DNA from: Acidobacteriota bacterium | GTDB lineage: Bacteria > Acidobacteriota > UBA4820 > DSQY01 | NCBI GenBank assembly: GCA_040752915.1 | Contig: JBFMHB010000028.1 | Location: forward strand, 1-37,415 | DNA: 37,415 nt | Direction: 5' to 3' | Shown here: positions 3,717-34,056 of the stretch, in pieces | Layout of the letters: the number at the start of each line of letters is the position of its first letter | How positions within the stretch are numbered: position 1 is the first letter of the stretch | Position numbers and translations under genes: made by a program | Notes under the pieces: model-generated | Database searches by the model: none | Seen by the model: only the letters and a program-made list of their open reading frames with translations | Told to the model about the DNA's origin: nothing

Positions 3717-3799
3717 TCACACCTCCCCTAAAAGCAAACCATCCAGCCCTTCGCAGGGGGCCGTCCTTCGATCCCGCTTGGCGCCCCGGCGGCGCCGCT

Positions 3800-4279
3800 T
3801 CACGATTTCGCCTCCTTGGCGCCTCGGCGTCCCTTGCCAGACGGGGGCGGCCCCCCTGACGCGGATTTCGGGGTCATGGAGGCGGCCAGATCCGAGAAGC
3901 GGATCTTGCCCAGGGCCGAGGCCAACTGGCGGCTGGCCCGGCACCACGCCCGCTGGACGGGGCATAGGTCCGAAAGGGGGCAATCCCCAGGGTTCACCAC
4001 GCAGCCGTTGAGGGCCACCTGCCCCTCCATGGCCTCCACGACCTCCCGGAGGCTGACCTTTCGGGCCGGCCGCGCGAGGGCGATTCCACCGCCGCTCCCC
4101 CTGGCCGTCCGGAGGATGCCCGCCGAAGACAAGCGGCTCACGATCCGGCGGATGAGGACCGGGGGGATGAGGCGCTTGCGCGCGATCTCGCCGGCCGTCA
4201 CGCGGGCGCCGGGCTCGAGGCTCGCCAGGTGGAGGACGATCCGCGCCGCGTAGTCCGTCTGCCTTCCGATTCCGATCAT
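3800..4279 (-). CDS. Rrf2-family Fe-S cluster transcriptional regulator
   Basis: A 159-residue winged-helix regulator of the Rrf2 family (IscR/NsrR relatives). The DNA-binding half carries the typical opening GRQTDYAARIVLHLA, with the wing near GSGGGIALARP (about 61-71). Cys93, Cys100 and Cys106, with a further Cys113, sit where IscR and NsrR bind their Fe-S cluster, so a cluster that senses NO, O2 or iron-sulfur status is likely. I chose the ATG at 4279; a TTG at 4291 is possible, but the ATG has GGGGGAGG directly upstream. Its promoter contains a palindrome across the -10, suggesting autoregulation, and cydAB follow directly. Whether it is closer to IscR, NsrR or another subgroup cannot be told from motifs alone. 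Confidence 0.9.
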   Translation of the reverse strand: MIGIGRQTDYAARIVLHLASLEPGARVTAGEIARKRLIPPVLIRRIVSRLSSAGILRTARGSGGGIALARPARKVSLREVVEAMEGQVALNGCVVNPGDCPLSDLCPVQRAWCRASRQLASALGKIRFSDLAASMTPKSASGGPPPSGKGRRGAKEAKS

Positions 4280-4299
4280 GGCCTCCCCCAAGGCGAATG

Positions 4300-4321
4300 T
4301 TACCTATTTAGTAATATTACT
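4300..4321. promoter_or_regulatory. Candidate Rrf2 operator (overlapping palindromes)
   Basis: Two symmetric elements overlap here: TTAC-N7-GTAA at 4300-4314 and the perfect 12-base palindrome AGTAATATTACT at 4310-4321. They are an AT-rich island in very GC-rich DNA and cover the -10 element and likely start site of the regulator's promoter. The minus-strand core ACTAAAT is reminiscent of sites bound by some Rrf2 proteins. A bound repressor here would block the whole rrf2-cydAB unit. Confidence 0.5.
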
Positions 4322-4341
4322 CCCGTCTCCTCCTTTGTCAA
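4314..4341 (-). promoter_or_regulatory. Sigma70-like promoter for rrf2-cydAB
   Basis: On the minus strand a perfect -35 TTGACA (4336-4341) is followed after 16 bases by TAATAT (4314-4319), five of six matches to the -10 consensus. Transcription would start near 4306, leaving a short leader before the ATG at 4279. This is the best promoter match found in the window. Confidence 0.65.
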
Positions 4342-4390
4342 GGCCCCCCGGATCCGGAGCCGCGGCTGACCTCCTCCAATCCCGATCCTT

Positions 4391-5854
4391 CTAAAGAAGG
4401 GGGCTGAGGAGGTTCATGGCTGCCTCCTGCAGTTGTTGAAGGCGCCCTGTCCGGCGCACGTCGGCCCCCGTTACCTCGCGGCTGGCCCCGAGGTCACCCA
4501 CAAACGCGTTCGACAGGGCCGCGTTTAGGGGCCGGTTCTGCACGAAGCAACTCACCTCGAAATTCAGCCGGAAGGACCGGTTGTCCAGGTTGGCGCTCCC
4601 CACCACGGAGAGTTCGTCGTCGAAGAGCCAGAGCTTCGTGTGAAGGACCGAGGGCAGGTATTCGAAGATGCGGATGCCCGACTCCAGAAGGGCCGGGTAG
4701 TAGGAGCGCCCCGCGATCTGGGCGAGCCGGACGTCCGAGATCGCCGGAACGAGCACGCGCACGTCCACCCCCCGGTACACCGCGGTCCGCAGGGCCGTCT
4801 GAATCGCCTGGTCGGGAGCCAGGTAGGGCGTGCAGATCCAGATGCGTTTCCGGGCCTGGGTGGCGGCCACGAAGAAGGCGTCGTGGGTCGCGTTGTACGC
4901 GGCGTCGGGGCCGCCCGCGATGAGGCGGCAGACGGCGTCGGTCTTCCCCGCGAGGGCCTGGGTGGGAACGAAGTCCTTTTCCACCAGGGCCCTCCCCGTG
5001 GCGAAGCACCAGTCGTCGGCGAAAATCTCCTGGAGGTGGGCCACCACGGGACCTTCCAGGAGAAGCCCCAGGTCCCTCCAGTGGCGGGTGTACTCCTCCC
5101 CGATGTTCAGCCCGCCCGCGTACGCCCTGACCCCGTCGGCGATGAGGATCTTCCGATGGTTCCGGAAGTTGATGGAGAGCGATCGCCGGAGAAACCTCGT
5201 GGGCGCGAAGGGCTCGACGCGCCCCCCCGCCCGACGAAGGGGGTCCATGAACCGTCCCAGGGCCCTCGAACTTCCCAGGGCGTCGAGCAGGACGCGCACC
5301 TGCACCCCGCTCCTCGCTCGCGACGCGAGGAGGTCTCGAAACTTCGCCCCCACGGCGTCGGCCTGCCACGTATAGAAGAGGAGGTGGAGGTGATGGCGCG
5401 CCCCGGCGATGGCCTCCTCCAGGGCCGCGTAGGTGGCCTCCCCGTCCTGGAACGCCTCGACCCGCCGGGCGGCCACCGCCGGAAAGACCCCCGCCTCCTG
5501 GCCCAGGGGGAGCCGGCGCAGGGGCAGGAGGGTATCGAGCCCTTCCGCCTGCCCTGTTTCCACTTCAGGCCTCAGGTTGGCGAATCCTTCGCGGATCTCG
5601 AAATGGGCCCTTGAGCGCCGCCTCCGCTTCCGCTTCAGGTGGCTCCGTCCGATGAGCCACCAGGCCAATACTCCGAGGATGGGCGCGGCGATGAGGCCCA
5701 GGGTCCAGGCCAGCGCCGCCAGGGGCTGTCCCCGCCGCTGGAGGAGAACCGACGGGATCGTGAACAGGGCCAGGACCTCCGCGAGAAACAGAAGGGCCGT
5801 CCACCCCGTCAGGTCCCAACCCAAGTTGTAGAACAGGTTGGTCAGCGGCTGCAC
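4391..5854 (-). CDS. cls: Cardiolipin synthase-like phospholipase D enzyme
   Basis: A 487-residue membrane enzyme expected to join two phosphatidylglycerol molecules into cardiolipin with release of glycerol. Two N-terminal transmembrane helices (about residues 15-70) are followed by a basic stretch KRKRRRRSR. Two phospholipase D half-sites follow: FRNHRKILIADG with the downstream GGLNIGEEY segment, and LHTKLWLFDD with GSANLDNRS, each an HxK motif with downstream Asp and Asn. The start is a GTG with GGAGG nine bases upstream; no earlier ATG exists. It lies 55 bases after glyS on the same strand and may be read from the glyQS transcript. The bacterial cardiolipin synthase A type is the best fit, but a different phosphatidyl-transferase is possible. 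Confidence 0.88.
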   Translation of the reverse strand: MQPLTNLFYNLGWDLTGWTALLFLAEVLALFTIPSVLLQRRGQPLAALAWTLGLIAAPILGVLAWWLIGRSHLKRKRRRRSRAHFEIREGFANLRPEVETGQAEGLDTLLPLRRLPLGQEAGVFPAVAARRVEAFQDGEATYAALEEAIAGARHHLHLLFYTWQADAVGAKFRDLLASRARSGVQVRVLLDALGSSRALGRFMDPLRRAGGRVEPFAPTRFLRRSLSINFRNHRKILIADGVRAYAGGLNIGEEYTRHWRDLGLLLEGPVVAHLQEIFADDWCFATGRALVEKDFVPTQALAGKTDAVCRLIAGGPDAAYNATHDAFFVAATQARKRIWICTPYLAPDQAIQTALRTAVYRGVDVRVLVPAISDVRLAQIAGRSYYPALLESGIRIFEYLPSVLHTKLWLFDDELSVVGSANLDNRSFRLNFEVSCFVQNRPLNAALSNAFVGDLGASREVTGADVRRTGRLQQLQEAAMNLLSPLL

Positions 5855-5909
5855 GGCAAGGTCCCTCCCTGGGCTCCCGTCCCGGCCTCCGCGTCCGAAC
5901 GGTCTTCCG

Positions 5910-8189
5910 TCAGCGGTTCTCCCTCGGAACGATCTGGGAGAAGTCCGCTACCCTGTCGAAAAGAGCCACAAGCCCACGCAAGAGCGCAAGACGGTTGTTC
6001 TGCAGGGCCGTCCGAGCGGGGTCCTTTCCGTCGGGGTCGCACATGACGAGCACGTCGTCGAAGAAGCGGTCCACGGCCGGCCGCACCGTGGCGAGCCGCT
6101 GGAGGCCCTCGGCGTAGCGTCTCTGTTCAAACAGCTCCTCGGCCTCCTGCCTCACGGCCTCCACGGCCTCGTGCAGGGCCCGTTCCCCCGCGCCCTCCTT
6201 CTCCTCGGGAGGCAGGAAAAGAGAGGGATCGAGGTCCACCTCGGGCATTCCCTTCAGGATGTTCTTGGCGCGCTTGAAGGCCACCGCCAGGTGGTCGAAA
6301 TCCTCGGGATACTGCCGGCGCACGGTGTGGACCGCCTCCAGGCGGGCGCGCATGTCCAGAAGGTCCGAGAGGCCCTGGGAAAGGACCGCGTTCAACTCGT
6401 CGTAGGAGGGCGCGCCTTTGGCCTCGGCGACGCCTTTTCCCTCCCACGAGTATCGCGCCCGTTCCAGGATGAAATCCTCCAGCGACGCGGCGCAGTCCGG
6501 CGCGTGAGAACGCAGGAAGGCGCTCAGATCGAAGCGCAGGCCCGAATGCCCCCCCGCGAACAGCCCGGGGTCCCCCAACATGGAGACCACCTGGTTCGCC
6601 GCCCGCCTCAGGCCGAAGGGGTCCTTGGAGCCCGTGGGCGCCAGGCCGATGGAAAAGAACTGGACGAGGGTGTCCAGCTTGTCCGCCAGGGCCACCACGA
6701 CGCTGAGGTGAGGATGGGCGCTGCCGGGCTGCGGGAGGGGCTCGCCGTAGTGTTCGCCGATGGCGCGGGCCACGGCGGGATCTTCCCCCTGGGCCTGGGC
6801 GTAGAGTCCGCCCGCCACGCCCTGGAGGGAGGTGAACTCCTTCTCCTGGACGAGGAGGGAAGCGAGGTCGCCCTTGCACAGGAGGGCGGCCCGGCCGGCC
6901 AGGTCGGGGTCCTCTTGGAAGGTCGGGGCCAGCTCGCGAGCCAGGACCTCCATCCGGAGGGCCTTGTCGTAGTACGTCCCAAGTTTCGGGTGGTAGACGA
7001 TTCCCTTGAGATCGTTGAGCCGCTCCGCCAGGGGCACCTTCTTGTCCTGGTCGTAGAAGAACTTCGCGTCCTTCAGGCGGGAGACCGTGACGTTCTCGTT
7101 TCCCCTTCGGACAAGCCCCGTCGGGTCTGAGGGCCCGTCCAGGACGGCGAGAAAGAAGGGGCGCAGCGCCAGCCCCTCCTCCGTCTGGGGAACGCCCGCC
7201 AGAGGATCGTTCGGATCGCTCGTCGCGTAAACGGCAAAGGACTTCTGGTGCTCCTTCAGGCACGTGGAAAGGACCGGCTCGGGCAGGGACAGGAAGGCCT
7301 CGGGGATGCTCCCGCGAAAGGCCGTCGGGTGCTCGCAGGTGAAGACGAGGGTTTCCAGCAACCCGCCGAACAACACGCTTTCCGACGGGTTGTCGCGATG
7401 AACGCTCCAGACGCCGCCGACGGCGGCGGCCAGCTCATCGAGTTCCTTCCTGATCTTGTTCTTGCGCTCCACGGGGTCGGAAAGGACGTGCTGGTTCCTC
7501 ATGACATCGAAATAGGCCTTCGCGGACGGAACCTCGACCCGGTCCGTTCCGTGGATCCGGTGGCCCCGGCTCGTGCGCCCCGCCTCGATCCCCTTGATCG
7601 TCAGGCGGACGACCTGATCGTCGAGAAGGGCCACGACCCACCGAACGGGCCTCACGAAGACCTCGGTCCCCTCCCCCCACCGCATAGCCTTGGGAAGGTA
7701 GAGGGCGTCCACCGCACGCGGGACGACCTCCGCCAGGACCTCGGCGGCGGACCGCCCCGGCACATGGCGCACGAAACCCACGCAGGGGCCCTTGAGACCC
7801 GCGACTTCCTTCAGGTCCCCCATGGCGACGCCCTGCTTTCGGGCAAAGCCCTCGGCGGCCCTGGTCCAGGCTCCGGAGGCGTCCCGAGCCGCCGAGAGGG
7901 GCGGCCCCGCCACCGTCTCTTCGCGGTCCGACTGCCGGAGCGGCAGTCCTTCGAGGAGGAACCCGATCCGCCGGGGCGCGGCAAGAAGCGTCATCCCCGG
8001 CATGAGGCGCCAGGCGGGGTTGCCGGGGATGAAGGCGAACATGGGCTCACGAGGGGGGCCATCGGCGGCGCTGGTCATCCCCTCCTTCTCGAGGGCCTCG
8101 GACACGTTGTGGCCCAGGTTGACGGCCAGGTCCCAGACCATCCCCGCCGGAATCTCCTCGGTGCCGATCTCCAGGAGAAAGTCAGCCAC
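5910..8189 (-). CDS. glyS: Glycyl-tRNA synthetase beta subunit
   Basis: Beta chain of the tetrameric (alpha2beta2) bacterial glycyl-tRNA synthetase, which binds and helps select tRNA-Gly. It opens with the family signature [13 protein letters not shown], has an HD-domain-like middle, and ends in an anticodon-binding region containing FFDDVLVMC. The start is GTG with GGAGG six bases upstream and overlaps the 3' end of glyQ by eight bases. At 759 residues it is some 70 longer than the usual 690 or so; the extra length seems spread over loops, for example near residues 45-75 and 310-345, rather than being one added domain. Confidence 0.96.
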
Positions 8190-9051
8190 GGACCGCCTCC
8201 TTCTCTCCCTCCGTGTGCTGGAGGTAGGCCTCGGCGCAGGCGCAGGCCAGCCGCCTCACGCGCTTGATGTAATCGGCCCGGGCCGCCACGGAAATGGCCC
8301 CGCGGGCGTCCAGGATGTTGAAGGCGTGGCTGGCCTTGAGGCAGAAATCGTAGGCCGGGAGGTAGAGCCCCGCCTCCACGAGCCGACGGCTCTCCGTTTC
8401 GAACTCCTCGAACCACCGCGCCGTGAGGTCCGTCCGCGCCTGCTCGAAGTCGAAGACCGAGAACTGGCGCTCGGCCTCGCGGCGCATGTCCCCGTAAGTG
8501 AACCGCTCGTTCCAGGGGAGGTCGTAGATGTCTCCGATGCCGTTGAGGAACATGCAGAGGCGCTCGATTCCGTAAGTGATCTCCACGGTCACGGGCTTCA
8601 ATTCGAATCCGCCCGCCTGCTGGAAGTACGTGAACTGGGTGATCTCGGTCCCGTCCAGCATGACCTGCCAGCCCACGCCCCAGGCCCCCAGGGTGGGCGC
8701 CTCCCAGTTGTCCTCCTCGAATTTCAGGTCGTGGTCTTTCAGGACGATGCCGAAGGCTTCCAGGCTCCTGAGGTACCGCTCCTGAATGTCGTCGGGGCTG
8801 GGCTTCATGATGACCTGGAACTGGTAGTGCTTCTCCACGCGCTGGGGGTTCTCGCCGTAGCGCCCGTCCCTCGGGCGACGGCACGGCTCCACGTAGGCGC
8901 TGGCGTAGGGCTTTGGCCCCAGGACCCTCAGGAAGGTCTCGGGGTTCATGGTCCCCGCGCCCTTCTCGAGGTCGTAGGGCTCGGCGATGAGGCAGCCCTC
9001 GCCAGCCCAGAAGTGCTTCATTCTCTCGATGAGGTCTTGAATGGTGAGCAA
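8182..9051 (-). CDS. glyQ: Glycyl-tRNA synthetase alpha subunit
   Basis: Catalytic class II alpha chain that activates glycine and charges tRNA-Gly together with GlyS. It is 289 residues, normal for the family, and opens with the conserved LTIQDLI and the [19 protein letters not shown] segment; [20 protein letters not shown] in the middle is also characteristic. The start is a rare TTG at 9051: it has GGAGG five bases upstream and there is no in-frame ATG nearby that keeps the conserved N-terminus. A -10-like TACAAT (9081-9086) lies upstream without a good -35, in the 136-base gap after recO, which otherwise shows nothing. Confidence 0.96.
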
Positions 9052-9187
9052 GGCATCCTCCGGATGGGTGACGAAGCCGCATTGTACACCAACGAGGCTC
9101 CGGCGCGACCCAACGGGGCCGGGGACGGGGGCGGATTCGCCTCCCTTCTTAGCATCTCGCGCCTTGCTCCTCCTCTCCTCCCCGCGA

Positions 9188-9832
9188 TCACCGCCCCCGA
9201 AACGAGGGGGCGGACCGCAGGGGCGCGCCGAGGTAGTCCGTGACCCCCCCCTCCAGCCTCCGCGCCAGACGGACGACGACGGAGGGGGAAACGGACAGTC
9301 CCGCGAGCGCGCCGGGAGCGTTCCGCAGGCAGGCCGAACGAAGCCGCTCCTCCTCTCCCCCCAGCTCGGAAGAAGGCTTCGGGCGGGCGAGATGGCCGTG
9401 GAGGCGCGAGAACCACAGGACGAAGTAGAGCCACGCCAGCGCCGGATCGAGCCCCTCCCGAAGGGGATCCATCAGGGCCTCCACGAGCCGGAAGGTCTCT
9501 TCCTCGGGGCTCTGGGCCGGCAGCCCCCGCTCCAGGATTTCGCACATCCCCAGGAGGACCTCCGCCCTCGGCCAGTCCTCGAAGAGGTCCATGGCGCCGG
9601 CCAGGACTTCGGCGCGGCGGACCTGCCCGAGGTCCCTTCCCTCGCGCAGGAAGACCTCCACCTGGATTTTCGTCATGGGTTCGAGGGACCCCCGGCCTCC
9701 GCTCCGGGTCTTCCGAGCGCCCCGGGCCACGGCGCGGAGGAGCCCGTGGTCGCGCATGAACAGGCTCACGATCCACGAGGATTCCGTGTACGCGTGACGG
9801 ACGAGAACGAAGGCTTCGCCGCTCAGGAGCAT
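9188..9832 (-). CDS. recO: DNA repair protein RecO
   Basis: A 214-residue RecO-like protein, the partner of RecR/RecF that loads RecA onto SSB-coated single-stranded DNA. The N-terminal OB-fold part (about 1-80) has the typical pattern of an opening beta strand, [24 protein letters not shown], then ARGARK and a block ending in a hydrophobic strand. The helical C-terminal part lacks the four-cysteine zinc site of some RecO proteins and is shorter than the usual 240 or so. The ATG has GGTGG four bases upstream; longer in-frame starts up to 9925 would add an unrelated Arg-rich tail. It stands before glyQS, a common bacterial arrangement. Confidence 0.85.
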
Positions 9833-9872
9833 GGTCCCACCGTGACCGCGCCGCCCGGCCTGGCCCCGACGC

Positions 9873-11078
9873 TCAGGGGCCCTTCTCCGGATCGCCCGGG
9901 GCGGGCCCGCCCCGTCCCAGAGCAAGGCCCACGAGGAAGAACAGCAACGTGGCCACCTCCGCGTCCCCTCCGTTGAATTCGAACACCCCGCCCACCAGGA
10001 AGGTCGTCAGGGCCGCCGTGGCGCCGATGCGGAGACTCGTTTCCGGCTGGCGAGCGATCTCTCGAAAGGCGGAGACGAAAAAGGCCAGCAGGAGGAGGAG
10101 GCCGACGGTTCCCGTCTGGACGGCGGTCATGATGTACAGGTTGTGGCAGTGGCTGCGGGACCGAAAGCCCTCGTGGTCGGGGTAATGGATGTTGCCGGCG
10201 TAGGGGGCCTTGAACGGGCCCGCCGCGCTTTCGTAGGCGTTGGGCCCCCACCCGGCGACGGGCCTCTCCTTCCACATGTCCAGGCCGGACTTCCAGAGGT
10301 AGAGCCGTTCCACGTTGCTCGCGTTGTCCGGGTCCCACAGGCTCGCCACCCGACGCCTCAGCCCGTCGGGGCCGGCGGCCACGAGAATCGCGCCCGCGAG
10401 GGCGGCGGCCAGGGCGGCTCCGGCCACAACTTTCCATCCCTTCCTCCAAAGCAGGAGGATGGCCGAGGGAAGGAGCCCGACCCAGTAGGTCCGGGCCAGG
10501 CTCGTGACCAGCCCCACTCCCGCCGCCGCCGAGCCCACCCACCAGGCCCAGCGGCGCCCCCGGCCGTACAGGGCCAGCGCGCCGGCCACCAGGACCACGG
10601 TGGCCATGACCCCCGCGTAGGTGAGGTGGTGGGAAAAAAAGCCGTGGGCGTTGACGGTTCCCGCCGCCGCCTTGGAAACGAGCAAGTCACGCCGGAAATC
10701 CGTGCCGAGGAAGAAGGCCGCCAGGCTCACCGGAACCGTCAGGGCCGCCGACAGGGTCAGGAATCCGGCCCATTTTGGAAAGGCCTCCCTCCGGGCGATG
10801 GCCGGAAGGGATGCACCCACGAAAAAAGCGATCCAGGCCCAGGAATCCAGGATCCCCCGCAGAGCCACCGAGCGGAACGGGCTGAGGAGGGCCGACACCA
10901 CCTGCCACAGGAGGAAGGAGGCGAGAAGCCAGGCGGCGGGGCTCGGGCGAAAGCGGCCCCGGATCGCCCTCCAGAGGAAGAAGAGGGTCAGCGCGCCCAG
11001 GGAGGCGTTGGTCACGGCCACGCCGAGGGGGGAGGACGCGGCGAGCAGATAATAAAAAAACAGCTCAACGGACCCCAC
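9873..11078 (-). CDS. O-antigen ligase / polymerase family membrane protein
   Basis: A 401-residue protein with about ten transmembrane helices and a large periplasmic loop between the later helices, the layout of the O-antigen ligase (WaaL) and Wzy polymerase superfamily. The loop holds LYLWKSGLDMWKERPVAGWGPNAY and then RSHCHNLYI, resembling the conserved G-x-G and His-Asn elements near the ligase active site. Ligases move an undecaprenyl-linked glycan to lipid A core; polymerases extend it. Sequence alone does not separate the two. The start is GTG with GGGAGG six bases upstream, and the gene overlaps the 3' end of the upstream glycosyltransferase by 14 bases, so both probably act in surface glycan assembly. 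Confidence 0.8.
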   Translation of the reverse strand: MGSVELFFYYLLAASSPLGVAVTNASLGALTLFFLWRAIRGRFRPSPAAWLLASFLLWQVVSALLSPFRSVALRGILDSWAWIAFFVGASLPAIARREAFPKWAGFLTLSAALTVPVSLAAFFLGTDFRRDLLVSKAAAGTVNAHGFFSHHLTYAGVMATVVLVAGALALYGRGRRWAWWVGSAAAGVGLVTSLARTYWVGLLPSAILLLWRKGWKVVAGAALAAALAGAILVAAGPDGLRRRVASLWDPDNASNVERLYLWKSGLDMWKERPVAGWGPNAYESAAGPFKAPYAGNIHYPDHEGFRSRSHCHNLYIMTAVQTGTVGLLLLLAFFVSAFREIARQPETSLRIGATAALTTFLVGGVFEFNGGDAEVATLLFFLVGLALGRGGPAPGDPEKGP

Positions 11079-12198
11079 GGAAGGCCTCCCATCTGGACTC
11101 GATGAAGCGCCGCATCTCCTCCACGAACCTCGGCCGGCCGAAACGCGCGGCGTGGGCGACGCAAACCGACGGGTCGAACCGCATGTGAACCCTCTCGAAG
11201 AGGGACAGGGCCTCGGCCAGGGATTCCGCCGAGGGCTCTGTGAAAAAGAGCCCCGTGGCCGCTCCGTACTCTTCGCCTTCGGGAGGAACCACCGTTTCCA
11301 GCGCGCCCCCTCGACCGTACGCGATGACCGGGGTCCCGGAGGCCTGGGCCTCCACCGGGGTGATCCCGAAATCCTCCTCTCCGCAAAAGAGGAGGGCCTT
11401 GGCCCGGGCCAGCTCGCGGGACACGTCGGCGTCGGGCAGGCGTCCCAGGAACTCCACCGTGGGGCCGGCGAGGCGTCTGAGCCGTCCCAGTTCGGGGCCC
11501 TCGCCGATCACCCGAAGGGGCAGTCCCAGGCGGGTGCAGGTGACCACGGCCAGATCCATCCGCTTGTACGCCACCATCCTCCCCACGGCGAGGTAGTGAT
11601 CCCCTCTCCGGCTTTCGGGAGAGAAGCGGTCCACGTCCACCGGCGGGTGGATGACCGCCGCCTCGCGCCCGTAGATGCGCCGGATTCTGCGGGCCACGTG
11701 GGCGGAATTGGCCACATAGTGATCCACCCTGGAGGCCGCCGCGGCATCCCAGATCCGGAGGTAGTGAAGGACGGCCCGCGCGGCGTGGGCCCTGGGTCCC
11801 CAGGTGAGACCGGCCATCCTGAGATAGGGATGGTACAGGTCCCAGGCGTAACGGACGGGCGTGTGGCAGTAGCAGACGTGGAGGCTGTCCGACCGGACGA
11901 GGGCCCCGTGGGCCACGCTGTGCGAGAAGGAGACCACGACCTCCGCTCCCGAGAGGTCCAGTTGCTCGATCGCATACGGGTACAAGGCGAGGAAGGTCCG
12001 GTACCGGCTCTTGAAGATCGGCCGGTTGAGAAAGGTCGTGTGGATGGGCCGGGTGGAAATGGCCGAATCCTCGAACTGGCGGGGGTCATAGAAGAGCGTG
12101 TGGAGGGGGGCGTTGGGGTAGGCCTCGCAGAGTGCTTCGAGACACCTCTCCGCGCCGCCGAAATCCACGAGCCAGTCCTGAACGAACGCCAGCTTCAT
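11065..12198 (-). CDS. GT4-family glycosyltransferase
   Basis: A 377-residue retaining glycosyltransferase with the GT-B fold. It opens MKLAFVQDWLVDFGGAER, the glycine-rich acceptor-side loop typical of GT4 enzymes such as the WbaZ mannosyltransferase type. The donor-site E-x7-E motif appears as EEDFGITPVE followed by GTPVIAYGRGGALETV (about residues 270-300). An HTPVRYAWDLY segment near residue 115 is shared by mannosyltransferase-like members, so a nucleotide-sugar such as GDP-mannose is plausible but unproven. It should act at the inner membrane face on a lipid-linked sugar. It overlaps the downstream O-antigen-ligase-like gene. Confidence 0.86.
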   Translation of the reverse strand: MKLAFVQDWLVDFGGAERCLEALCEAYPNAPLHTLFYDPRQFEDSAISTRPIHTTFLNRPIFKSRYRTFLALYPYAIEQLDLSGAEVVVSFSHSVAHGALVRSDSLHVCYCHTPVRYAWDLYHPYLRMAGLTWGPRAHAARAVLHYLRIWDAAAASRVDHYVANSAHVARRIRRIYGREAAVIHPPVDVDRFSPESRRGDHYLAVGRMVAYKRMDLAVVTCTRLGLPLRVIGEGPELGRLRRLAGPTVEFLGRLPDADVSRELARAKALLFCGEEDFGITPVEAQASGTPVIAYGRGGALETVVPPEGEEYGAATGLFFTEPSAESLAEALSLFERVHMRFDPSVCVAHAARFGRPRFVEEMRRFIESRWEAFRGVR

Positions 12199-12273
12199 GC
12201 CCTATTCCCCCCCGGCTCCCGGGGCCCTCCGGCTGGGCTCAGGCTCGCCCGCCGACCCCGGAGCCCGTTCGTT

Positions 12274-13416
12274 TCACTCCCCGAAACACAGGGCCAGAAC
12301 CTCCGCCAGCTGCTTCGCCGGATGGAACTCGCTCTCCACCCGGGCCCGCCCCCGCTCCCCCATGGCGGACCGGAGGCCCGGATCCGCCAGGAGCCTCTCC
12401 ACGGCATCCCGCAGCGAAGCGGCGTTCTTGTCCGCGAGAAATCCCGTCACGTTGTGGTCGACGATTTCCACGAGCCCGCCGCTGCGCGTCGCGACGACGG
12501 GAAGCCCCCTCGCCATCCCTTCCACCGCCACCAGGCCGAAGGGCTCGTCCCAGAGGGAAGGAACCACCAGGACGTCGAGGGAGTCGAGAAACGGGATGGC
12601 CTCCACCATCCGGCCCGCGATCCGGATCCGTTCCGCGCGCGGCGACGCGGCCGCCATTCTGACCACGCGGGCCTCCTCCTCGGGATCCTCGAAATCCGCC
12701 CCGCCGCCCACGAGAAGCCGCAAAGCCGGGTGCCGCTCCAAGAGGGGGGCAAGGGCCTCCAGAAAGAGGGACTGCCCTTTGGTGCGGGAGATCCTTCCCA
12801 GGACACCCACGGCCACGTCACCGGGGTTCAACCCCATCGCTTCACGGGAGCGCCGACGCTCCGAGGGGGCCTCCAGGAACCGGGGGCTCACCCAGTAGTG
12901 GATCTTGACGCCCTTCGCCCCGCAGTCCTTCGCGAAGGGGTGAGCCACCGCCCCGGAGCAGAACACGATCTTCCGGACCTCCTTTTGCCGCAGGCACCAC
13001 CGGATCAGCCGGTGCTCGAACCCCCCGGTGAAGATGAGGTGGAGCGCGAGCACCACGGGAGGCCCTCCCCCACGGGCGGCGAGCACGGCGGGGAGAAACG
13101 CCCGGGGAGCGTTGGCGTAGAGAAGATCCGCGGGTTCCTCGGACAGGGTCGCGCGAAGGGCTCTGGCCGCCCGCCAGGCATGGAAGGGATAGGCGGCTTT
13201 TTCGGCCAGCGGCTTCCTGCCGGGCGTCATGGCCGGGAGGGGCAAGGGGTGGACCGGGAACCCCTCCTCCCGCAATCGGGCCTCCGCGGCTCCCTGCCCA
13301 GGCAGAAAGACCCGAACCGAATGCCCCGCCTCCCTCATGGCGAGGGCCAGATCCATCAGGATCCTTTGGCCCCCGCCGAGGCCCGCATACTGGTCCAGCA
13401 GAACGACGCGCGCCAT
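12274..13416 (-). CDS. GT4-family glycosyltransferase
   Basis: A second, 380-residue GT-B glycosyltransferase. It starts MARVVLLDQYAGLGGGQRILMDLA, with the Gly-rich loop, and carries the donor site VVPSLWDEPFGLVAVEGMARGLPVV with E-x7-E. A GVLGRISRTKGQ segment near residue 190 matches the phosphate-binding region of GT4 enzymes. I chose the ATG at 13416; upstream codons stay open to 13542 but would run into the divergent tonB and show no family similarity. The only GGAGG is about 13 bases from the ATG. A TACACT -10-like hexamer at 13424-13429 would place the transcript start at or next to the ATG, so a leaderless mRNA is possible. Sugar and acceptor cannot be named. Confidence 0.86.
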   Translation of the reverse strand: MARVVLLDQYAGLGGGQRILMDLALAMREAGHSVRVFLPGQGAAEARLREEGFPVHPLPLPAMTPGRKPLAEKAAYPFHAWRAARALRATLSEEPADLLYANAPRAFLPAVLAARGGGPPVVLALHLIFTGGFEHRLIRWCLRQKEVRKIVFCSGAVAHPFAKDCGAKGVKIHYWVSPRFLEAPSERRRSREAMGLNPGDVAVGVLGRISRTKGQSLFLEALAPLLERHPALRLLVGGGADFEDPEEEARVVRMAAASPRAERIRIAGRMVEAIPFLDSLDVLVVPSLWDEPFGLVAVEGMARGLPVVATRSGGLVEIVDHNVTGFLADKNAASLRDAVERLLADPGLRSAMGERGRARVESEFHPAKQLAEVLALCFGE

Positions 13417-13520
13417 GGGTCTGAGTGTACCCTCCGGGGATTCAAAAGCGAAGTCCCGGCGGTGGAACTTCCGGATCAGAGGATGGTCCAAGTCCGCAGA
13501 CGGCAAGAATGGAGGCCACC

Positions 13521-14228
13521 ATGTTCGAGCACGTATTCTCACCCCCGATCGCTCCCTCCCCGCTCCGGCGGACCGCCCTGCCCGCGGCCATCGCCCTGCA
13601 GACCGCGATGGGGATGCTCCTTGTGGCCCATGCCCTCTTCGGCCCCGAACGCCTCGCCCCTCCCATCACCCTCACCTTCTGGGCGGCGCCCCCCGCCCTG
13701 GAGCCCCCGCCTGCCCGGCGCACCGAGGCGTCCACGTCCTCTTCCGCCGCCCGCACACCCACGAGGCCCCGCGGCATGGAGGCGCCGAACGAGGTCCCCG
13801 CCGGACCTCCCGACGCCTCCGCCCCGAACGACGAAGGACCCGGTCACACGGGGGACGGTGGAGTTCCGGGCGGCGCCGACAAGGCCCCGGACGATGGACC
13901 GGGGCGCGACCCGCTCCCTGTCCAGAACCCGCCATCCATTCTGGAGACCTGGCAGGTCCATCTTCCCAAGCCCGTCTACCAGCCCTCGCCCGAATTCCCG
14001 CGAGCGGCCGCCGCCATGCATCTGGAGGGGCGCGTCGTCCTGCAACTGGTGGTGGACGAAACGGGTGCCGTCCGGGAGGCGAAGGTGGTCCAATCCACCA
14101 ACCCCATCTTCGACGCCGCCGCGGTGGAGGCGGTCCGAAGGTGGAAGTACACGCGCCCCATCGACGCCCGGAGCGGGTCCGCCGTCGCCTGCTATCTCAC
14201 CGTGGTCGTGAACTTTCGCTCCCGGTGA
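13521..14228 (+). CDS. TonB-family energy transducer protein
   Basis: A 235-residue TonB-like protein that would couple the inner-membrane proton gradient to outer-membrane receptors. It has a short cytoplasmic N-terminus, one transmembrane anchor (about residues 19-41), a Pro/Gly/Asp-rich periplasmic linker (about 50-145) and a C-terminal TonB domain with YQPSPEFPRAAAAMHLEGRV and AAVEAVRRWKYTRP. An earlier in-frame ATG at 13509 is unlikely because GGAGG lies five bases before the ATG at 13521. No exbB or exbD is next to it, so it depends on motor proteins encoded elsewhere. Its 3' end overlaps the opposing DUF389 gene by 32 bases. Confidence 0.87.
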   Translation: MFEHVFSPPIAPSPLRRTALPAAIALQTAMGMLLVAHALFGPERLAPPITLTFWAAPPALEPPPARRTEASTSSSAARTPTRPRGMEAPNEVPAGPPDASAPNDEGPGHTGDGGVPGGADKAPDDGPGRDPLPVQNPPSILETWQVHLPKPVYQPSPEFPRAAAAMHLEGRVVLQLVVDETGAVREAKVVQSTNPIFDAAAVEAVRRWKYTRPIDARSGSAVACYLTVVVNFRSR

Positions 14229-15966
14229 CGGGAGTCGGCCGGACGACATCCCCGGCGTCCCCCCTGTACACAAGGCGGAATTCGAGAATGGGTGCGGTCC
14301 CCTCTGCGGGCTCCAAGATTCGCTCCGTCGGTTCCAGGAATCCGCCCGGAAGGGCGACGCCGGACAATTCGTCGAGAACCCGCCTGGCGGCCTCCCGGAG
14401 TTCCGCCTGGGTTCGGGCCCCCAGCCCGCGGGGAAGCGCGAGCCCAGGAGCCACGCTCAAGGGAACGCCGGCTTCGTCGATTCGGGCGGTCGCCTCCGCC
14501 AACCACGTGCTCAGATCCGAAGCCCCGGGAAAGGGCCGGAGGATCAAGGACGGCAACGTGGAGGAGAAACAAGAGATCTGGATGGAATCGGAGGGAACGG
14601 CCAGGAGGGCCGCCGCGCCCCGCCTCAGCACTTCCGCCGCTTCCTGCCCGAGGCGCCTTCCGGACAGATACCGAACCTGGATGCGCGGCCGGATCGGGCC
14701 CGGCGGCGCCACAACCGCGGCTCCAAGAAAGGTTCCCGCCGATTCCCCCGGCCATAGCGATGCGAGCCTCGCGACCTCCCCGGAGTCCAACGCGCGGACC
14801 ATCTCTCCAAACCGGCTCGTACTCGCGCCTGCCGCCGGAGTCTCCTTGAAGGCGGCGCGGCTTGCAACCTCCGTGTACGTAACACGAATCGGACCGTCCA
14901 GTCGGCCTTCGAGGTATTTCTCCACCTCCCGGACGCTGGCTTCGACGGGGGTTGCGCCGGCGAGCAGGACCAGGTGGAGGCTGGGCGTTTCCTGCCCGGC
15001 GGAGACGGTTCGGGAGAGAATCGTCACGCCGGGAAGGAACCGGTCCACGGCCTTCGCCGCTTCGCGCTTGAGGGTGATCTCCCTCTTCACCTGCTTGAGC
15101 CCGCTGTTGAGGGGAAAGAGCAGAATGAGCACGGCCACCGCGGAAACGAGGACCCGATTGCCGAGCCCGCCCACCTTCCGAAACCTCTCGGTCAGGGCCA
15201 TGCTGTCCAGCCAAGCGTGAACCCGCCTGCCCTTTTCCCTCTCGGCGACGAACGCGCGGATCTCGGAGGTCTCCTCCGACGTCGCCATGCCGATCGAGAG
15301 AAACACCAGGAGAGACGCGAAGACGATGGCGGCCAGGTTGGTGAAGAACAGAATCATGGCCCCGGCGAACACGTCCCGCCGCCATCCGGCCCCTAGCCCC
15401 CATCCTGCCGTACACAGGGGAGGGACCAGGGCCACGGCGATCGCCACGCCCGGTAGGACGGTCCCTCCTCCGGCCGACGGCAGCCTCGCGGCGGACACGG
15501 CGGCGATCAGGCCGCACAGGAGGGCAATACCCAGATCCAGGGGGTTGGGCCGGGTGCGCGCGAGGATTTCGAGGGTGGTTTCCTGAAAGGGCAGAAGGAC
15601 CGCGACAAGGGCCGAGACCCCGAGGGACGCTGCGACGGACACCAGGCAGGCCCACGCGGAGCGAAAGCCCAGAAAGACGTCCCCGATGGCCAGGGCGAGC
15701 CCCAACGCCACGATGGGGATCATGAGCGGCGACAGGAGCATGGCTCCGATGATGACGGCCGGACTGTTCTGGGCAAGGCCCAGCGTCGCGATCCCGCAGG
15801 CGGAAAGCAGCGAGAGCCAGTAGAAGGGCTTTTTCAGGTCCGATTCCTCGAAGAGGAGTTCGTAGACCTCCGACCTCGTAGCCGTCGGCACTCCAAGCGC
15901 CTGGGAGAAGCGATCCGCCTGCGACTTGAGGAGCTCCACCAGCGGCCGGAAAGGATCCTGCGACAT
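14197..15966 (-). CDS. DUF389 family membrane protein with long soluble C-terminus
   Basis: A 589-residue protein of unknown function. About residues 50-305 match the DUF389 hydrophobic domain: six or so helices with the signature IIGAMLLSPLMIPIVALGLA near residue 75 and a conserved AVALVPPLCTAGWGL segment. A cytoplasmic-looking basic stretch (about 235-265) precedes a last helix near 275-290. The remaining 290 or so residues are soluble and contain two strand-helix units, each resembling a small alpha-beta domain. The ATG has GGAGGTG close upstream. Family members are uncharacterised membrane proteins, so no function is assigned. It converges on tonB with overlapping 3' ends, and no terminator is seen between them. 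Confidence 0.8.
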   Translation of the reverse strand: MSQDPFRPLVELLKSQADRFSQALGVPTATRSEVYELLFEESDLKKPFYWLSLLSACGIATLGLAQNSPAVIIGAMLLSPLMIPIVALGLALAIGDVFLGFRSAWACLVSVAASLGVSALVAVLLPFQETTLEILARTRPNPLDLGIALLCGLIAAVSAARLPSAGGGTVLPGVAIAVALVPPLCTAGWGLGAGWRRDVFAGAMILFFTNLAAIVFASLLVFLSIGMATSEETSEIRAFVAEREKGRRVHAWLDSMALTERFRKVGGLGNRVLVSAVAVLILLFPLNSGLKQVKREITLKREAAKAVDRFLPGVTILSRTVSAGQETPSLHLVLLAGATPVEASVREVEKYLEGRLDGPIRVTYTEVASRAAFKETPAAGASTSRFGEMVRALDSGEVARLASLWPGESAGTFLGAAVVAPPGPIRPRIQVRYLSGRRLGQEAAEVLRRGAAALLAVPSDSIQISCFSSTLPSLILRPFPGASDLSTWLAEATARIDEAGVPLSVAPGLALPRGLGARTQAELREAARRVLDELSGVALPGGFLEPTERILEPAEGTAPILEFRLVYRGDAGDVVRPTPVTGSESSRPR

Positions 15967-16037
15967 GAACACCTCCAAGAGCGCACCATCAACGTAGCAC
16001 ATCCGGCGGCGACTTCTTATGGGAAGGGGGAAACCGG

Positions 16038-16913
16038 TCAGCGAAGGGCCACGGAGAGGGAGCCGGGCCAGTAAGGCTCCGCCGCCAGGGCGGCCATCAC
16101 GAGGAGCGCGAAGAGGTTCACGGCGGCGAAGGCCGCCCGGAACACACGGGGGGCCGGCCGGTCTCCCAGGAGGGGAAGAGAGCCGGCCGTGAGGGCCATC
16201 GCGGCGACGCCCAAGATCCAGACGGACGCCGGGGAGAGGACCGCGCCGAACAGGGGCAGGAGGAGGACCGAGGCGGCGGCGGTGGCGAGCCACACAAAAG
16301 TGAGCCGCGCCAGGCCCCTCTTCCCCAACAGTTTTTGAAGGGAAGGGTATCCCGCACGCTCGTACTCCTCTCCGTAGCGGTAGAGGAGCAGCCAGAAGTG
16401 GGGCACCTGCCAGAGGAAGAAAAAGAAGCAGAGGGAGGCCAGGCGGGCGTCGAGCAGGTCCGCTCCGGCGGCCGTCCAGCCGATGGCGGGAGGGATGGCG
16501 CCGATGACCGAACCCGGCACGACGGCGAAGGCCGAGAGGCGCTTGAGGGGCGTATAGACGGCGTTGTACCAGAATACGGCCCCCAGGCACAGGAACGCGG
16601 GCAAGACCCCGAAGACCTCCCATGTCAGGACGAGGCCCGCGGCGACCAGGGCGACGGCCAGAAGGAGGGCCGCGCTCTGGGAGATCCTCCCCGCCGGGAT
16701 GGGGCGCCGGCGGGTCCGCTCCATGAGAGCGTCCAGGTCCCGCTCCTGCCACTCGTTCAGCGCCGAGGCGCCCATGGCCGCCAGGCACACGCCGGCGAAG
16801 AGGAACGCCAGGCCCATGCCGCCTCCCCCACCGGCCAGGAGGTAGACGGAGAGGGCCGACAGGGTGGAAGTCGCCGCGATGGGGACTTTCGTGAGAATCA
16901 TCAGGTCGCGCAT
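16038..16913 (-). CDS. ctaB: Protoheme IX farnesyltransferase (heme O synthase)
   Basis: A 291-residue UbiA-superfamily enzyme that adds a farnesyl group to heme b to make heme O, the precursor of heme A for the caa3 oxidase encoded upstream. The first prenyl-diphosphate site is seen at residues 53-73 as N53, D59, D61 and the MERTRRRPI signature specific to this family; a second conserved element, YTPLKR, follows near residue 120. Some eight or nine helices are predicted by hydrophobicity. It lies 22 bases after ctaC as the last gene of the respiratory operon. No clear Shine-Dalgarno is seen; an ATG five codons in is equally possible as start. No ctaA (heme A synthase) is in the window. Confidence 0.94.
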   Translation of the reverse strand: MRDLMILTKVPIAATSTLSALSVYLLAGGGGGMGLAFLFAGVCLAAMGASALNEWQERDLDALMERTRRRPIPAGRISQSAALLLAVALVAAGLVLTWEVFGVLPAFLCLGAVFWYNAVYTPLKRLSAFAVVPGSVIGAIPPAIGWTAAGADLLDARLASLCFFFFLWQVPHFWLLLYRYGEEYERAGYPSLQKLLGKRGLARLTFVWLATAAASVLLLPLFGAVLSPASVWILGVAAMALTAGSLPLLGDRPAPRVFRAAFAAVNLFALLVMAALAAEPYWPGSLSVALR

Positions 16914-29266: not shown

Positions 29267-29830
29267 CTACCTGTGACACGCGTTGCAGTGTTCGGGCCCC
29301 TTCGTCACGCGCGAATCGGGCGCCACGGCCGCCCGGGCGTCCCGGTGGCATCCCAGGCAATTGCCCATGCGCATGGACATGTGCTGGGAAACCCGATCCA
29401 TTTCCTGAATCTCTCCGTGGCAGGTCTGGCAGGCCACGCCCGCGGCCACGTGGGGTCTGTGGTCGAAGTAGACGTGGTCCGGAAGCCGGTGGATCCGCTT
29501 CCAGGCGATAGACCCGCCCGAGGCGTGGGCCCGTTGGATCTTCTGGATCTCGGGGCTCTCCGTCTTGGTGACGGTGTGGCAGTTCATGCAGGTGGAAACG
29601 GCTGGAATCCCGGCGTGGCGGGACTTCTCCACTCCTGTGTGGCAATACAGGCAGGGAATCTTCATGGATCCGGCGTGGAGGGCGTGGGAGAACGCGACGG
29701 GTTGCTCCGGGGCGAATCCCTTCACGAACCGATCGGGCTGGGTCAACCAACCGACCGAGAGGACCGTCGTCAGGATCGCCGCGCTTCCCACGGGCAGCCA
29801 CAGTCGAGCGAAGCGGTCGTAAGGATGCAT
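29267..29830 (-). CDS. actA: Alternative complex III pentaheme cytochrome c ActA
   Basis: First gene of the operon: a 187-residue cytochrome with a single N-terminal helix (about 10-29) and five CxxCH heme sites at C60, C81, C134, C158 and C182, the last one residue from the C-terminus. In alternative complex III, ActA is the multiheme subunit that passes electrons from ActB toward ActE and the oxidase. I chose the ATG at 29830, which has GGGAGGGTGG directly upstream; an open frame continues upstream to 30019, but that stretch holds the promoter and has no signal-like sequence. A GC-rich hairpin (29851-29867) lies in the leader. Confidence 0.94.
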   Translation of the reverse strand: MHPYDRFARLWLPVGSAAILTTVLSVGWLTQPDRFVKGFAPEQPVAFSHALHAGSMKIPCLYCHTGVEKSRHAGIPAVSTCMNCHTVTKTESPEIQKIQRAHASGGSIAWKRIHRLPDHVYFDHRPHVAAGVACQTCHGEIQEMDRVSQHMSMRMGNCLGCHRDARAAVAPDSRVTKGPEHCNACHR

Positions 29831-29850
29831 CCACCCTCCCGGACCTTGCC

Positions 29851-29867
29851 GCCGGCCGCGGGCCGGC
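29851..29867. repeat. GC inverted repeat in the actA leader
   Basis: A perfect inverted repeat with seven-base arms GCCGGCC and GGCCGGC around GCG lies about 20 bases before the actA ATG, within the predicted 5' untranslated region. In RNA it would form a short, very stable stem just ahead of the Shine-Dalgarno site. It could affect translation of the first gene or be incidental in GC-rich DNA. Confidence 0.4.
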
Positions 29868-29992
29868 TTGCCATGCCCCCTGGCTCCGGATTCGCTGGAC
29901 GGGTCTCGATCCGGAGATTTCGACTTCTGAAAACAACACTCCCGGAGCCGTATTCCCGCCGGAGACTCTGTCGAAGACCACCGCGGCACGCC

Positions 29993-31248: not shown

Positions 31249-32544
31249 CTACGGGTACAGCTTGTAGAGCATCCTCGGGTAGGGGATGGTCTCTCGAACG
31301 TGCTGGAGGCCGCAGATCCAGGAGACGGTGCGCTCGAGGCCGATGCCGAAGCCGCCGTGGCGGACAGTCCCGTAGCGTCGGATGTCGAGGTACCAGCGGA
31401 AGGCCTCCTCGGGAAGGCCGTGCTCGCGGATGCGGCTCAGGAGGAGGTCGTGGTCGTGGATGCGCTCGGAGCCTCCGATGATCTCGCCGTACCCCTCGGG
31501 GGCGAGGACGTCGACGCAGAGGGCCAGGCTCGGGTCCTCGGGGTCGGGCTCCATGTAGAAGGCTTTCACGGCGCTCGGGTACCGGTGGACCATGAGGGGC
31601 CGGTCGTACTGCCGGGTCAGGATCGTCTCGTCGTCGCCTCCGAAGTCGTCACCGAACTTGAGGTCCGAGCCCAGGGAGTGGAGCTGCTCCACGGCATCCT
31701 TGTACTGGAGGCGCGGGAAGGGCTTCTGCACCATCTCGAGCTTGGAAGTGTCCCGTTCGAGGACCTTCAATTCCTCGGCGCACCGGTCCAGGACGCGCGC
31801 CACGACCGAGGTGAGAAAGTCCTCGGCCAGGTTCATGACGTCGTCCAGGGTGGCAAAGGCCACCTCCGGCTCGAGCATCCAGAATTCCATCAGGTGGCGG
31901 CGGGTCTTGCTCTTCTCGGCCCGGAAAGTGGGGCCGAAGCAGTACACCTTCCCGAGGGCCATGCAGGCGGGCTCCAGGTAGAGCTGGCCCGACTGGCTGA
32001 GGAAGGCCTTTTCGCCGAAGTAGTCGGTCTCGAAGAGGGTGGTGGTCCCCTCGCAGGCGGCGGGCGTCAGGATGGGGCTGTCGATAAGGGTGAAGCCGCG
32101 GTCGTAGAAATAGTCCCGGAAGGACTGCTCGATCTCTGAGCGAACGCGGAGGATGGCCACCTGGCGGGAGGATCGCAGCCAGAGGTGGCGGTTCTCCATG
32201 AGGAATCCGGTGCCGTGCTCCTTCTTCCCGATGGGGTACTCTTCGGCCATGTGGTGGAGGCGGGCATCGGTGAGGGAGAGCTCCACGCCTCCCGGGGCCC
32301 GCTCGTCGAGGCGGACGATCCCCGTGACCGTCACGGAGGACTCGAGGCTCACGCGGTCCAGGAGGTCGAAGACTTCGGCGGAGACGTCCTTGACGAAGGC
32401 CACGCATTGGAGATAGCCCGTGCCGTCCCGCAGGATGAGGAACCGCACCTTGCCCGAGGAGCGCTTGTTGTAGACCCAGCCCGAGAGCGTCACCGCTTTC
32501 CCGGCGTGCTTCGACAGTCCCTTGATCGTCAGCGGCATGTCCAT
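31249..32544 (-). CDS. asnS: Asparaginyl-tRNA synthetase
   Basis: A 431-residue class IIb synthetase that charges tRNA-Asn with asparagine. The N-terminal OB-fold anticodon domain (about 1-105) starts with [24 protein letters not shown]. The catalytic part has motif 2 with [21 protein letters not shown]; the [11 protein letters not shown] wording is characteristic of AsnRS rather than AspRS. Motif 3 is [15 protein letters not shown] near the C-terminus. Start ATG at 32544 has GGGAG five bases upstream; another ATG two codons on is possible. Its presence means direct Asn-tRNA charging, although an indirect amidotransferase route may also exist elsewhere. Confidence 0.96.
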
Positions 32545-32571
32545 GGAGGCTCCCTCTCGCCAGAGGCGGGA

Positions 32572-32601
32572 ATTATAGACGAGGCAGGCCTTTTCGGGCA
32601 A
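32572..32601 (-). promoter_or_regulatory. Candidate promoter of asnS
   Basis: A perfect -10 TATAAT (minus strand, 32572-32577) lies 18 bases after TTGCCC (32596-32601). The start would fall near 32565, giving a leader of about 20 bases that just covers the Shine-Dalgarno site. Confidence 0.5.
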
Positions 32602-32738
32602 TACGTTGAGGGAACCAAGCAAATCGGATGACGGGAGACGCGAAGGACAGGACGGGGCGTCGGGCGGCGCGATCCTTATCAGCCGCATTTCCTGGCCGCC
32701 CTGTCGACTCCCCTGCTTCGTCTTTCCCTTTCTTCCCC

Positions 32739-32763
32739 CGGACGGCTCGGGCCGGCCCGTCCG
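32739..32763 (-). terminator. Weak hairpin after the VWA-FHA gene
   Basis: Seven-base arms (CGGACGG at 32739-32745 and CCGTCCG at 32757-32763) with an 11-base loop lie ten bases after the stop of the VWA-FHA gene. No T-run follows, so termination here is only a suggestion. The remaining sequence up to the asnS promoter shows no gene. Confidence 0.3.
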
Positions 32764-32772
32764 CCCGTATTC

Positions 32773-34056
32773 CTAGTTCAGCCTCCGCTGTTCGAGACGG
32801 AATGTGAAGTCGCACTGGCCCGCGTGGATGACGCCGTCCGGCTTGAGCTCCTTGAGGGTGACGCGCTCGCCGTTGAGGTACGTGCCGTTGGTGGACTTGA
32901 GGTCCACGAGGTAGAAGGCGCCCTCCTTGGGCACGATTCGAAAGTGCTGTCCCGACAGCGTCTGGTCGGCCACGGAGATGGTGTTGATCTTGTCCCGACC
33001 CACGGAAACGACCTGGCCCGACGGGATCTGGAAGGCCCGGGGAGGGTTGTTCCCCCTCCTCAGGACCAGCACGGGCACCTCGTCAAGGACCAGGGTGTGG
33101 TCCAGCATCTCCGAAGAGGGCGCCTTCTGGAGGAGGGCCGGATCGATCTCCGGAACCGAAGGGGCCGCGGGGCTCTGGGTCTCGTCCCCCGGTTTCGTGA
33201 TGGCGAGTTTCGAGGCGAGGCAGTCGGGACACTCGCTCTCCCACATCTTGAGTTCCCGCCCGCACTGCTCGCACACCCGCTCGGGAGGCGGACTCGTCCT
33301 GCGGAGGAGGAGGAACACGGCGGCCGCGATGGCGGCCAGGACGAGGAGGCCCACGGCCGCCGCAAGGACCACGAACCAGAAAAGTCGGGGGTCCGCGGCC
33401 GCCTTGGGAGCCGGCCGCTCTTCCTCGGGCGCGGGCCGGGGAGGCGGTGGCGGCTCGGGGACTTTCACCGGAACGAGGGAGGCGGCGGCGGCCTCGAAGG
33501 AGACCCCCAGGTCTCGGGCCGTCAGGTCCTGGATCCGTCCCGCGTACCTCCCGCCGGTGAGGGCGGCCATGCGGCGGAGCGTCCGCTCCTCCGCCGCGCC
33601 CACCCCCACGGCCACGAGCGCCACGTGGGCCTCGGCGGCCCTGGAGGCGCCGTCTTCGAGCGTGACGGCGGAGTTTTCGTCCCTCCCGTCTGAAATGAGC
33701 AGGACCACGCCTTCGCTCCCCTTCGCCTGGATGGCCTGAACCGCCGTAAACACGCAGTCGTGCAGAAGGGTGTACCGGCCTCCCGGACGGAGATTCCGCA
33801 ACCCCTCCGCCAGGGCGCCAAGGTCCTGGGTGAAGTCCACGACCTGGACGGCCTCGTCGTTGAACGCGTACAGAGCCACGGGCCCGCGAGCCAGAAGGGA
33901 CGGGAGGGCTTCGGCCACCAGGCCCTTGGCTGCATCGAACTGCGCCGGCGGGATGGAGCGGCTCGTGTCTACCAGGACCGCCGTGGGGGCGGCACCCGCC
34001 GCCAGGGACAGGATGGCCGCGGTGAGCACGGCGATGACCAGGGGCATGCGTTTCAT
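32773..34056 (-). CDS. VWA - transmembrane - zinc ribbon - FHA protein
   Basis: A 427-residue protein joining domains across the membrane. A signal-like N-terminus (about 1-22) is followed by a von Willebrand A domain (about 24-190) with a complete-looking MIDAS: D30-T-S-R-S34 plus a later ISDGRDE, so metal-dependent ligand binding is plausible. A Pro-rich linker leads to one helix (about 226-252), a CxxC...CxxC zinc ribbon (about 260-278) and a C-terminal FHA domain with SVGRDK and STNGTYLNG, which should bind phosphothreonine. The simplest topology has VWA outside and FHA inside. Start ATG at 34056 has GGAGG six bases upstream; open codons up to 34176 are not needed. Partner kinase and ligand are not in the window. 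Confidence 0.85.
   Translation of the reverse strand: MKRMPLVIAVLTAAILSLAAGAAPTAVLVDTSRSIPPAQFDAAKGLVAEALPSLLARGPVALYAFNDEAVQVVDFTQDLGALAEGLRNLRPGGRYTLLHDCVFTAVQAIQAKGSEGVVLLISDGRDENSAVTLEDGASRAAEAHVALVAVGVGAAEERTLRRMAALTGGRYAGRIQDLTARDLGVSFEAAAASLVPVKVPEPPPPPRPAPEEERPAPKAAADPRLFWFVVLAAAVGLLVLAAIAAAVFLLLRRTSPPPERVCEQCGRELKMWESECPDCLASKLAITKPGDETQSPAAPSVPEIDPALLQKAPSSEMLDHTLVLDEVPVLVLRRGNNPPRAFQIPSGQVVSVGRDKINTISVADQTLSGQHFRIVPKEGAFYLVDLKSTNGTYLNGERVTLKELKPDGVIHAGQCDFTFRLEQRRLN

Follow-up and report, generated by a model that had tools for sequence, protein, structure and literature searches.

PpkA is described as a one-pass membrane protein with its VWA domain outside and its kinase inside (PMC3224232; PMC1262709), and in a model of type VI secretion phosphorylated Fha multimerises (PMC6082577). 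The ArnA/ArnB pair of Sulfolobus is described as carrying a zinc finger, an FHA domain and a vWA domain on two chains (PMC6509490; PMC12852372). According to PMC6733907, the self-peptides of DgcB (Bdellovibrio), GarA and OdhI share hydrophobic residues at positions -3, +2 and +3 and Glu at -2, and pThr9 of TIFA is reported to be bound between dimers (PMC7083832).

The acidobacterial gene analysed here lies in the window, the whole 37,415-nucleotide stretch of DNA that was examined, and its product carries a VWA domain, a predicted membrane helix (TM), a zinc-ribbon-like motif and an FHA domain in one chain. No description of a VWA–TM–zinc ribbon–FHA chain was found in the literature searched for VWA with FHA, in which subscription journals were thinly covered; the family architecture is new to that literature, and its parts are already known. 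The initial annotation had called the combination unusual, which holds for the four-part order and gives way for the single parts, which have precedents in PpkA and ArnA/ArnB.

Gene, protein layout and family

The gene occupies positions 32773-34056 of the minus strand, with an ATG at 34056 and the stop at 32773-32775, and encodes 427 amino acids. A longer TTG-start ORF reaches 34176, and the starts of relatives fall near the ATG. The reading frame and the coordinates originally proposed are thus borne out, full-length relatives exist, and the gene represents a real, conserved family. Its features, and the gene that follows it, are:

32773..34056, minus strand: whole gene, 427 aa plus stop; full-length relatives
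33985..34056, minus strand: N-terminal hydrophobic segment or signal peptide, residues 1-24; hydropathy in 31/31 rows, model helix 4-18
33478..33984, minus strand: VWA domain, residues 25-193; Pfam, invariant MIDAS residues D30, S32, S34, T96 and D123, model fold
33298..33390, minus strand: predicted membrane helix, residues 223-253, then Arg-Arg; hydropathy, positive-inside pattern, model helix
33220..33273, minus strand: zinc-ribbon-like motif, C262, C265, C276 and C279; four Cys in 24/31 rows, Pfam DZR below cut-off
33085..33105, minus strand: conserved Thr motif L-D-H-T-L-V-L, residues 318-324; T321 codon at 33094-33096, T in 30/30
32794..33075, minus strand: FHA domain, residues 328-421; Pfam E 5e-16, pThr site R354, S368 and N390 (with G353 and H371)
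31249..32544, minus strand: asnS (asparaginyl-tRNA synthetase), next gene downstream; Pfam tRNA-synt_2, E 2e-72

When 60 close genomes were searched with the protein, near-full-length matches were obtained in the window's own genome, in seven of the eight other genomes of its taxonomic family (the eighth is 67% complete), in 4/4 genomes from a second family within the order and in four further genomes of the phylum. Across the phylum sample, 36 of 396 Acidobacteriota genomes reach E 1e-25 or better with a 16-row profile, and full-length relatives, with both VWA and FHA matched, are present in 29 of the 396 by our own reading of the table. Among the matches listed, the encoding contigs include those of the MAGs Acidobacteria bacterium BP9.bin43 and WY3.bin21, Holophagae bacterium CSMAG_2841 and uncultured Acidobacteria RBC046; a single-sequence scan of genome contigs found no relative. 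The first alignment comprised 34 rows, 31 of them distinct (L062, L063 and either L065 or L166 are the duplicates). The tree groups L078 with the sister proteins, outside the family, and this row was dropped before the 30-row alignment. The 30 members aligned there are recovered as a single clade, apart from nine other VWA-FHA proteins (support 100/99). L219 (Polyangium), with VWA and FHA in one frame, was left out of the seven sister loci.

The VWA domain was matched by Pfam at residues 27-177 (E 3e-12, over cut-off), and its MIDAS residues (DxSxS plus the distant Thr and Asp) are invariant in 34/34 rows. Its model fold matches CMG2/anthrax-receptor, BatB and integrin I domains at Z 21-22, and also ArnB of the ArnAB complex (8s05_A, Z 20.7). 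The full-length AlphaFold model (pLDDT 85.8, pTM 0.49) places the VWA strands and helices at 25-193, a helix at 223-253 and the FHA strands from 324 onward. The fold search with this full model gave VWA matches only, and the cytoplasmic part was therefore modelled and searched separately. The resulting model matches the FHA domains of FhaA, CT664, ArnA, DgcB, GarA and OdhI at Z 16-18, with OdhI, GarA, FhaA and DgcB as the closest folds in the structure search; ArnA is matched both by fold (5a8i, Z 17.0) and by sequence (8s05_C).

Pfam FHA covers residues 350-411 over its cut-off, and the pThr-site signature (Gly-Arg, Ser-x-x-His, Asn-Gly: G353 R354 S368 H371 N390 G391) is invariant in 30/30 relatives. 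R354 is present in 33 of the 34 rows and missing in L078, outside the family. Loss of the FHA Arg, Ser and Asn in orthologues, which the initial annotation had named as evidence against its own proposal, was not found, because these residues are kept in all 30. The zinc ribbon is less firm: the Pfam double zinc ribbon scores 15.3 bits against a cut-off of 27.3, and the four Cys, spaced CX2C-X10-CX2C, are retained by 24 of the 31 distinct rows, the other seven having lost them. Since it is lost in these rows, the ribbon is, judging from the alignment, not essential to the family. Of the proposed VWA, zinc ribbon and FHA layout, VWA and FHA score over the Pfam cut-offs and the ribbon scores below its own. 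Between Cys279 and the FHA domain the linker varies, apart from the conserved Thr321. A second conserved linker stretch was seen at residues 305-313 of the 30-row alignment (D305-P306 with K311 and P313).

The VWA domain is predicted to lie outside the cytoplasm and the FHA domain inside it, because the protein begins with an N-terminal hydrophobic segment (by hydropathy, 31/31 distinct rows) and the side after the internal hydrophobic stretch is rich in Lys and Arg (at least three within 10 residues in 30/31 rows; L022 has one). These features, which put VWA and FHA on opposite sides of the membrane, argue against a cytoplasmic VWA domain that would act with the zinc ribbon and FHA on one side, as in archaeal ArnA/ArnB. 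Such an arrangement could appeal to the fold and sequence matches to ArnB and ArnA given above and to a Cys spacing equal to that of the ArnA finger as described (C21, C24, C35, C38; PMC12852372), and we consider it very improbable.

An invariant threonine ahead of the FHA fold

A feature newly noticed here, beyond the domains named by the initial annotation, is Thr321, just ahead of the FHA fold, which is Thr in 30/30 relatives and never Ser or Val (34/34 rows when duplicates and L078 are counted). Of the 20 Thr in the protein, only T96 of the MIDAS and T321 are Thr in 30/30 and never Ser, and T321 persists in rows that lost the zinc ribbon. Its setting is L-[DE]-x-T-x-V-L, with L/I/F at -3 and D/E at -2 (29/31 rows each), V at +2 (25/31) and L/I/M at +3 (30/31), a register that matches that of the GarA, OdhI and DgcB self-peptides. 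The strict motif is present in 25 of 31 family rows by our own count, whereas in a non-redundant set of 149 other FHA domains just one is preceded by it (null 0.6). The looser form [DE]xTx[VIL][LIVMF] precedes 6/149 (null 2.3), slightly over chance, and another looser form 31/149 (null 19.7). As a general FHA feature the motif was therefore rejected in its strict form and left weakly open in its loose forms; given the counts for the latter, a weak general excess of the loose motif before FHA domains is possible.

In both models FHA strand 1 (324-334) begins at residue 324, and the motif directly abuts it. The aligned ranges of the GarA, OdhI and DgcB FHA domains start at model residues 69-72 (324-327), so that T321 lies just outside the shared fold, and the motif block has a mean pLDDT of 64 in the cytoplasmic-only model. 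Thr321 is followed by about 3-5 residues before the FHA fold starts, compared with about 28 in OdhI (pT15, aligned fold from 43) and about 18 in DgcB (T14, aligned fold from 32).

The main rival to a regulatory role is a structural one, in which L-[DE]-x-T-x-V-L would cap the start of strand 1 and remain unphosphorylated, while the FHA domain would recognise a pThr carried by another protein, a partner for which the VWA protein would serve as a plain membrane anchor. Because the motif abuts strand 1 directly, folding may be what conserves T321, V323 and L324; the common strand start in both models, the resemblance of V323 and L324 to strand residues and the near-fixed distance from motif to domain in the alignments fit this role. 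It is less easily reconciled with the position of T321 outside the shared fold, the pLDDT of the block, the rarity of the strict motif before other FHA domains and the complete avoidance of Ser and Val, although the last is by itself no proof of phosphorylation. On balance we hold the structural role to be somewhat unlikely.

We tentatively favour, at a probability of roughly 0.45, an envelope-tethered, single-pass inner-membrane adaptor with a cytoplasmic phosphothreonine switch, in which Thr321 would be bound by the FHA domain of a neighbouring copy. A proline-rich stalk would carry the VWA head outside the cytoplasm, and the head, judging from its fold and conserved residues, may use the MIDAS metal to bind an acidic residue in a partner protein. 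Inside, Thr321 would be phosphorylated by one of the cell's Hanks-type kinases, and pThr321 would then be bound by the FHA domain of an adjacent copy; the likeliest outcome would be head-to-tail pairing or clustering, governed both by kinase activity in the cytoplasm and by whether the VWA head on the other side is occupied. As a prediction, such a switch mechanism is plausible. In an FHA domain the termini and the pThr pocket are at opposite ends of the fold. Because of this, and because so few residues part Thr321 from the fold, binding is probably between molecules, and binding within one chain is unlikely. We regard as unlikely, too, a bacterial integrin-like receptor that would join an outer MIDAS VWA head to inner pThr-driven FHA polymerisation, with pThr321 inserted into the pocket of the next copy and with kinase inside and ligand outside jointly setting clustering in the membrane.

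Several of the zinc ribbon-FHA and VWA-FHA proteins at L220, L255 and L078 have, shortly before the FHA domain, a basic residue and then T-V-F/Y (KTVF, RTVF or RTVY). L032 and L034 encode zinc ribbon-FHA proteins of about 195 aa with several T-[VIL]-[LI]-E-like linker repeats, possibly multiple kinase sites.

Genomic context and possible links to Ser/Thr phosphorylation

The window's own genome encodes 12 kinase domains over cut-off, one PP2C and 8 FHA domains, seven of them besides that of the window protein. On the window contig neither a kinase nor a PP2C was matched, and none was found by motif, in agreement with the earlier remark that no kinase or phosphatase adjoins the gene. Among the family loci, a kinase-like motif was found in 2/29 and a PP2C motif in 0/29, by a scan that is imperfect and missed the L218 kinase found by Pfam; placement of the family in kinase/phosphatase clusters is unsupported by these counts. 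Distant VWA-TM-FHA proteins, in which a hydrophobic stretch parts VWA from FHA, adjoin PP2C at four of seven loci, L078 (Holophagales), L220 (G031), L255 (G192) and L218 (Synergistota), and kinases at two of them, L078 and L218; neither turned up in the motif scan at L252, L253 and L254. In G031 a family member (L024) occurs together with one of these distant relatives (L220). The Synergistota relatives in the PP2C/kinase cluster are without such a Thr motif, which, like the scarcity of kinase and PP2C motifs at the family loci, speaks against the proposed switch.

The gene neighbours, proposed from the outset as a check, give a divided answer: kinase and PP2C genes are not linked to the family itself and adjoin some of its distant counterparts. 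Because distant VWA-TM-FHA genes adjoin PP2C and kinase genes, this architecture is part of Ser/Thr phosphorylation in certain lineages, and by analogy the same may be true of the window's own family. The suggested connection to a Ser/Thr kinase pathway is in this way strengthened by the invariant pThr site, by the kinases and the PP2C of the genome and by the distant loci.

The further FHA domains and the kinases of the genome are also compatible with a role in which Thr321 would be phosphorylated by a kinase and recognised by a different FHA protein of that cell, the window protein being a phospho-regulated membrane dock whose own FHA domain would recruit an activated kinase; PDB entry 6i2p, in which the kinase PknB binds GarA, offers a parallel. 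Most loci are without a genetically linked FHA or kinase gene, an adjacent FHA-RDD gene having been Pfam-checked in L177 only, and this docking role appears quite improbable to us. Binding of Thr321 between copies remains our preferred reading.

Because the simple gene caller gave several doubtful ORFs in GC-rich DNA, names are given only to those neighbouring genes that were checked with Pfam. In the neighbourhood clustering of 29 loci, asnS follows the gene in 10, all in the window's order, and among the matches listed no partner is shared more widely. The gap to asnS measures 9-21 nt in four genomes from the second family within this taxonomic order; at 31249-34056 of the window the gene likewise lies upstream of asnS, and the two are possibly co-transcribed in that neighbouring family. 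A histidine kinase and response regulator pair is divergent to the gene in at least three other genomes, and in L173, the sole Pfam-checked locus, the pair is NtrY-like and of sigma-54 type. The family member at L177 (8073-10446) overlaps a downstream gene for an FHA-RDD membrane protein. Three kinases are clustered at the L078 locus (Holophagales UBA5704, 2034-16220) with two PP2C-like ORFs, one of which was Pfam-checked, and with a VWA-TM-FHA protein, a zinc ribbon-FHA-FHA-ABC transporter and a zinc ribbon-FHA protein. In the window, a multihaem cytochrome c7-type protein is encoded at 29270-29899, beside large genes common to 5-6 of the 29 loci.

Comparison with known systems

To our knowledge, the signals that pass between the cell envelope and bacterial Hanks-type kinase networks are largely unknown. 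The conserved one-chain link of a ligand-type VWA head to an FHA domain flanked by an invariant Thr is a directly testable node, with one peptide, one domain and one residue. If Thr321 binds in trans, the protein would be a bacterial membrane case of TIFA-type self-association logic. Like the window protein, TIFA has a Thr before its FHA domain, and in TIFA that Thr is bound between molecules; TIFA is mammalian, without a membrane or VWA part.

The window protein shares with the PpkA-Fha1-PppA pathway of type VI secretion a one-pass membrane layout with an outer VWA domain and cytoplasmic Thr phosphorylation (both predicted here), as well as an FHA part. PpkA, however, has a kinase where the window protein has its zinc ribbon and FHA domain, and no kinase domain in the same chain was found among Pfam matches up to E 1. 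The acidobacterial VWFA proteins of TIGR03436 are alike in their VWA domain and phylum, but the protein scores 47.7 bits with this model, below its cut-off of 81.25. The GarA, OdhI and DgcB switches resemble it in FHA fold and in Thr register (-3, -2, +2, +3), but are not VWA membrane proteins, and the Thr of OdhI and DgcB lies far ahead of the fold rather than next to it; with the OdhI model of the GarA/OdhI family the protein scores 36.1 bits, below the cut-off of 200.

ArnA/ArnB has the same three domain types and the same Cys spacing as the window protein, from which the beta-sandwich and helical domains described for ArnB (PMC12852372) are absent. In ArnA/ArnB the vWA domain is on a separate cytoplasmic chain, whereas here a single chain bears all three, the VWA domain being separated from the zinc ribbon by a predicted membrane helix.
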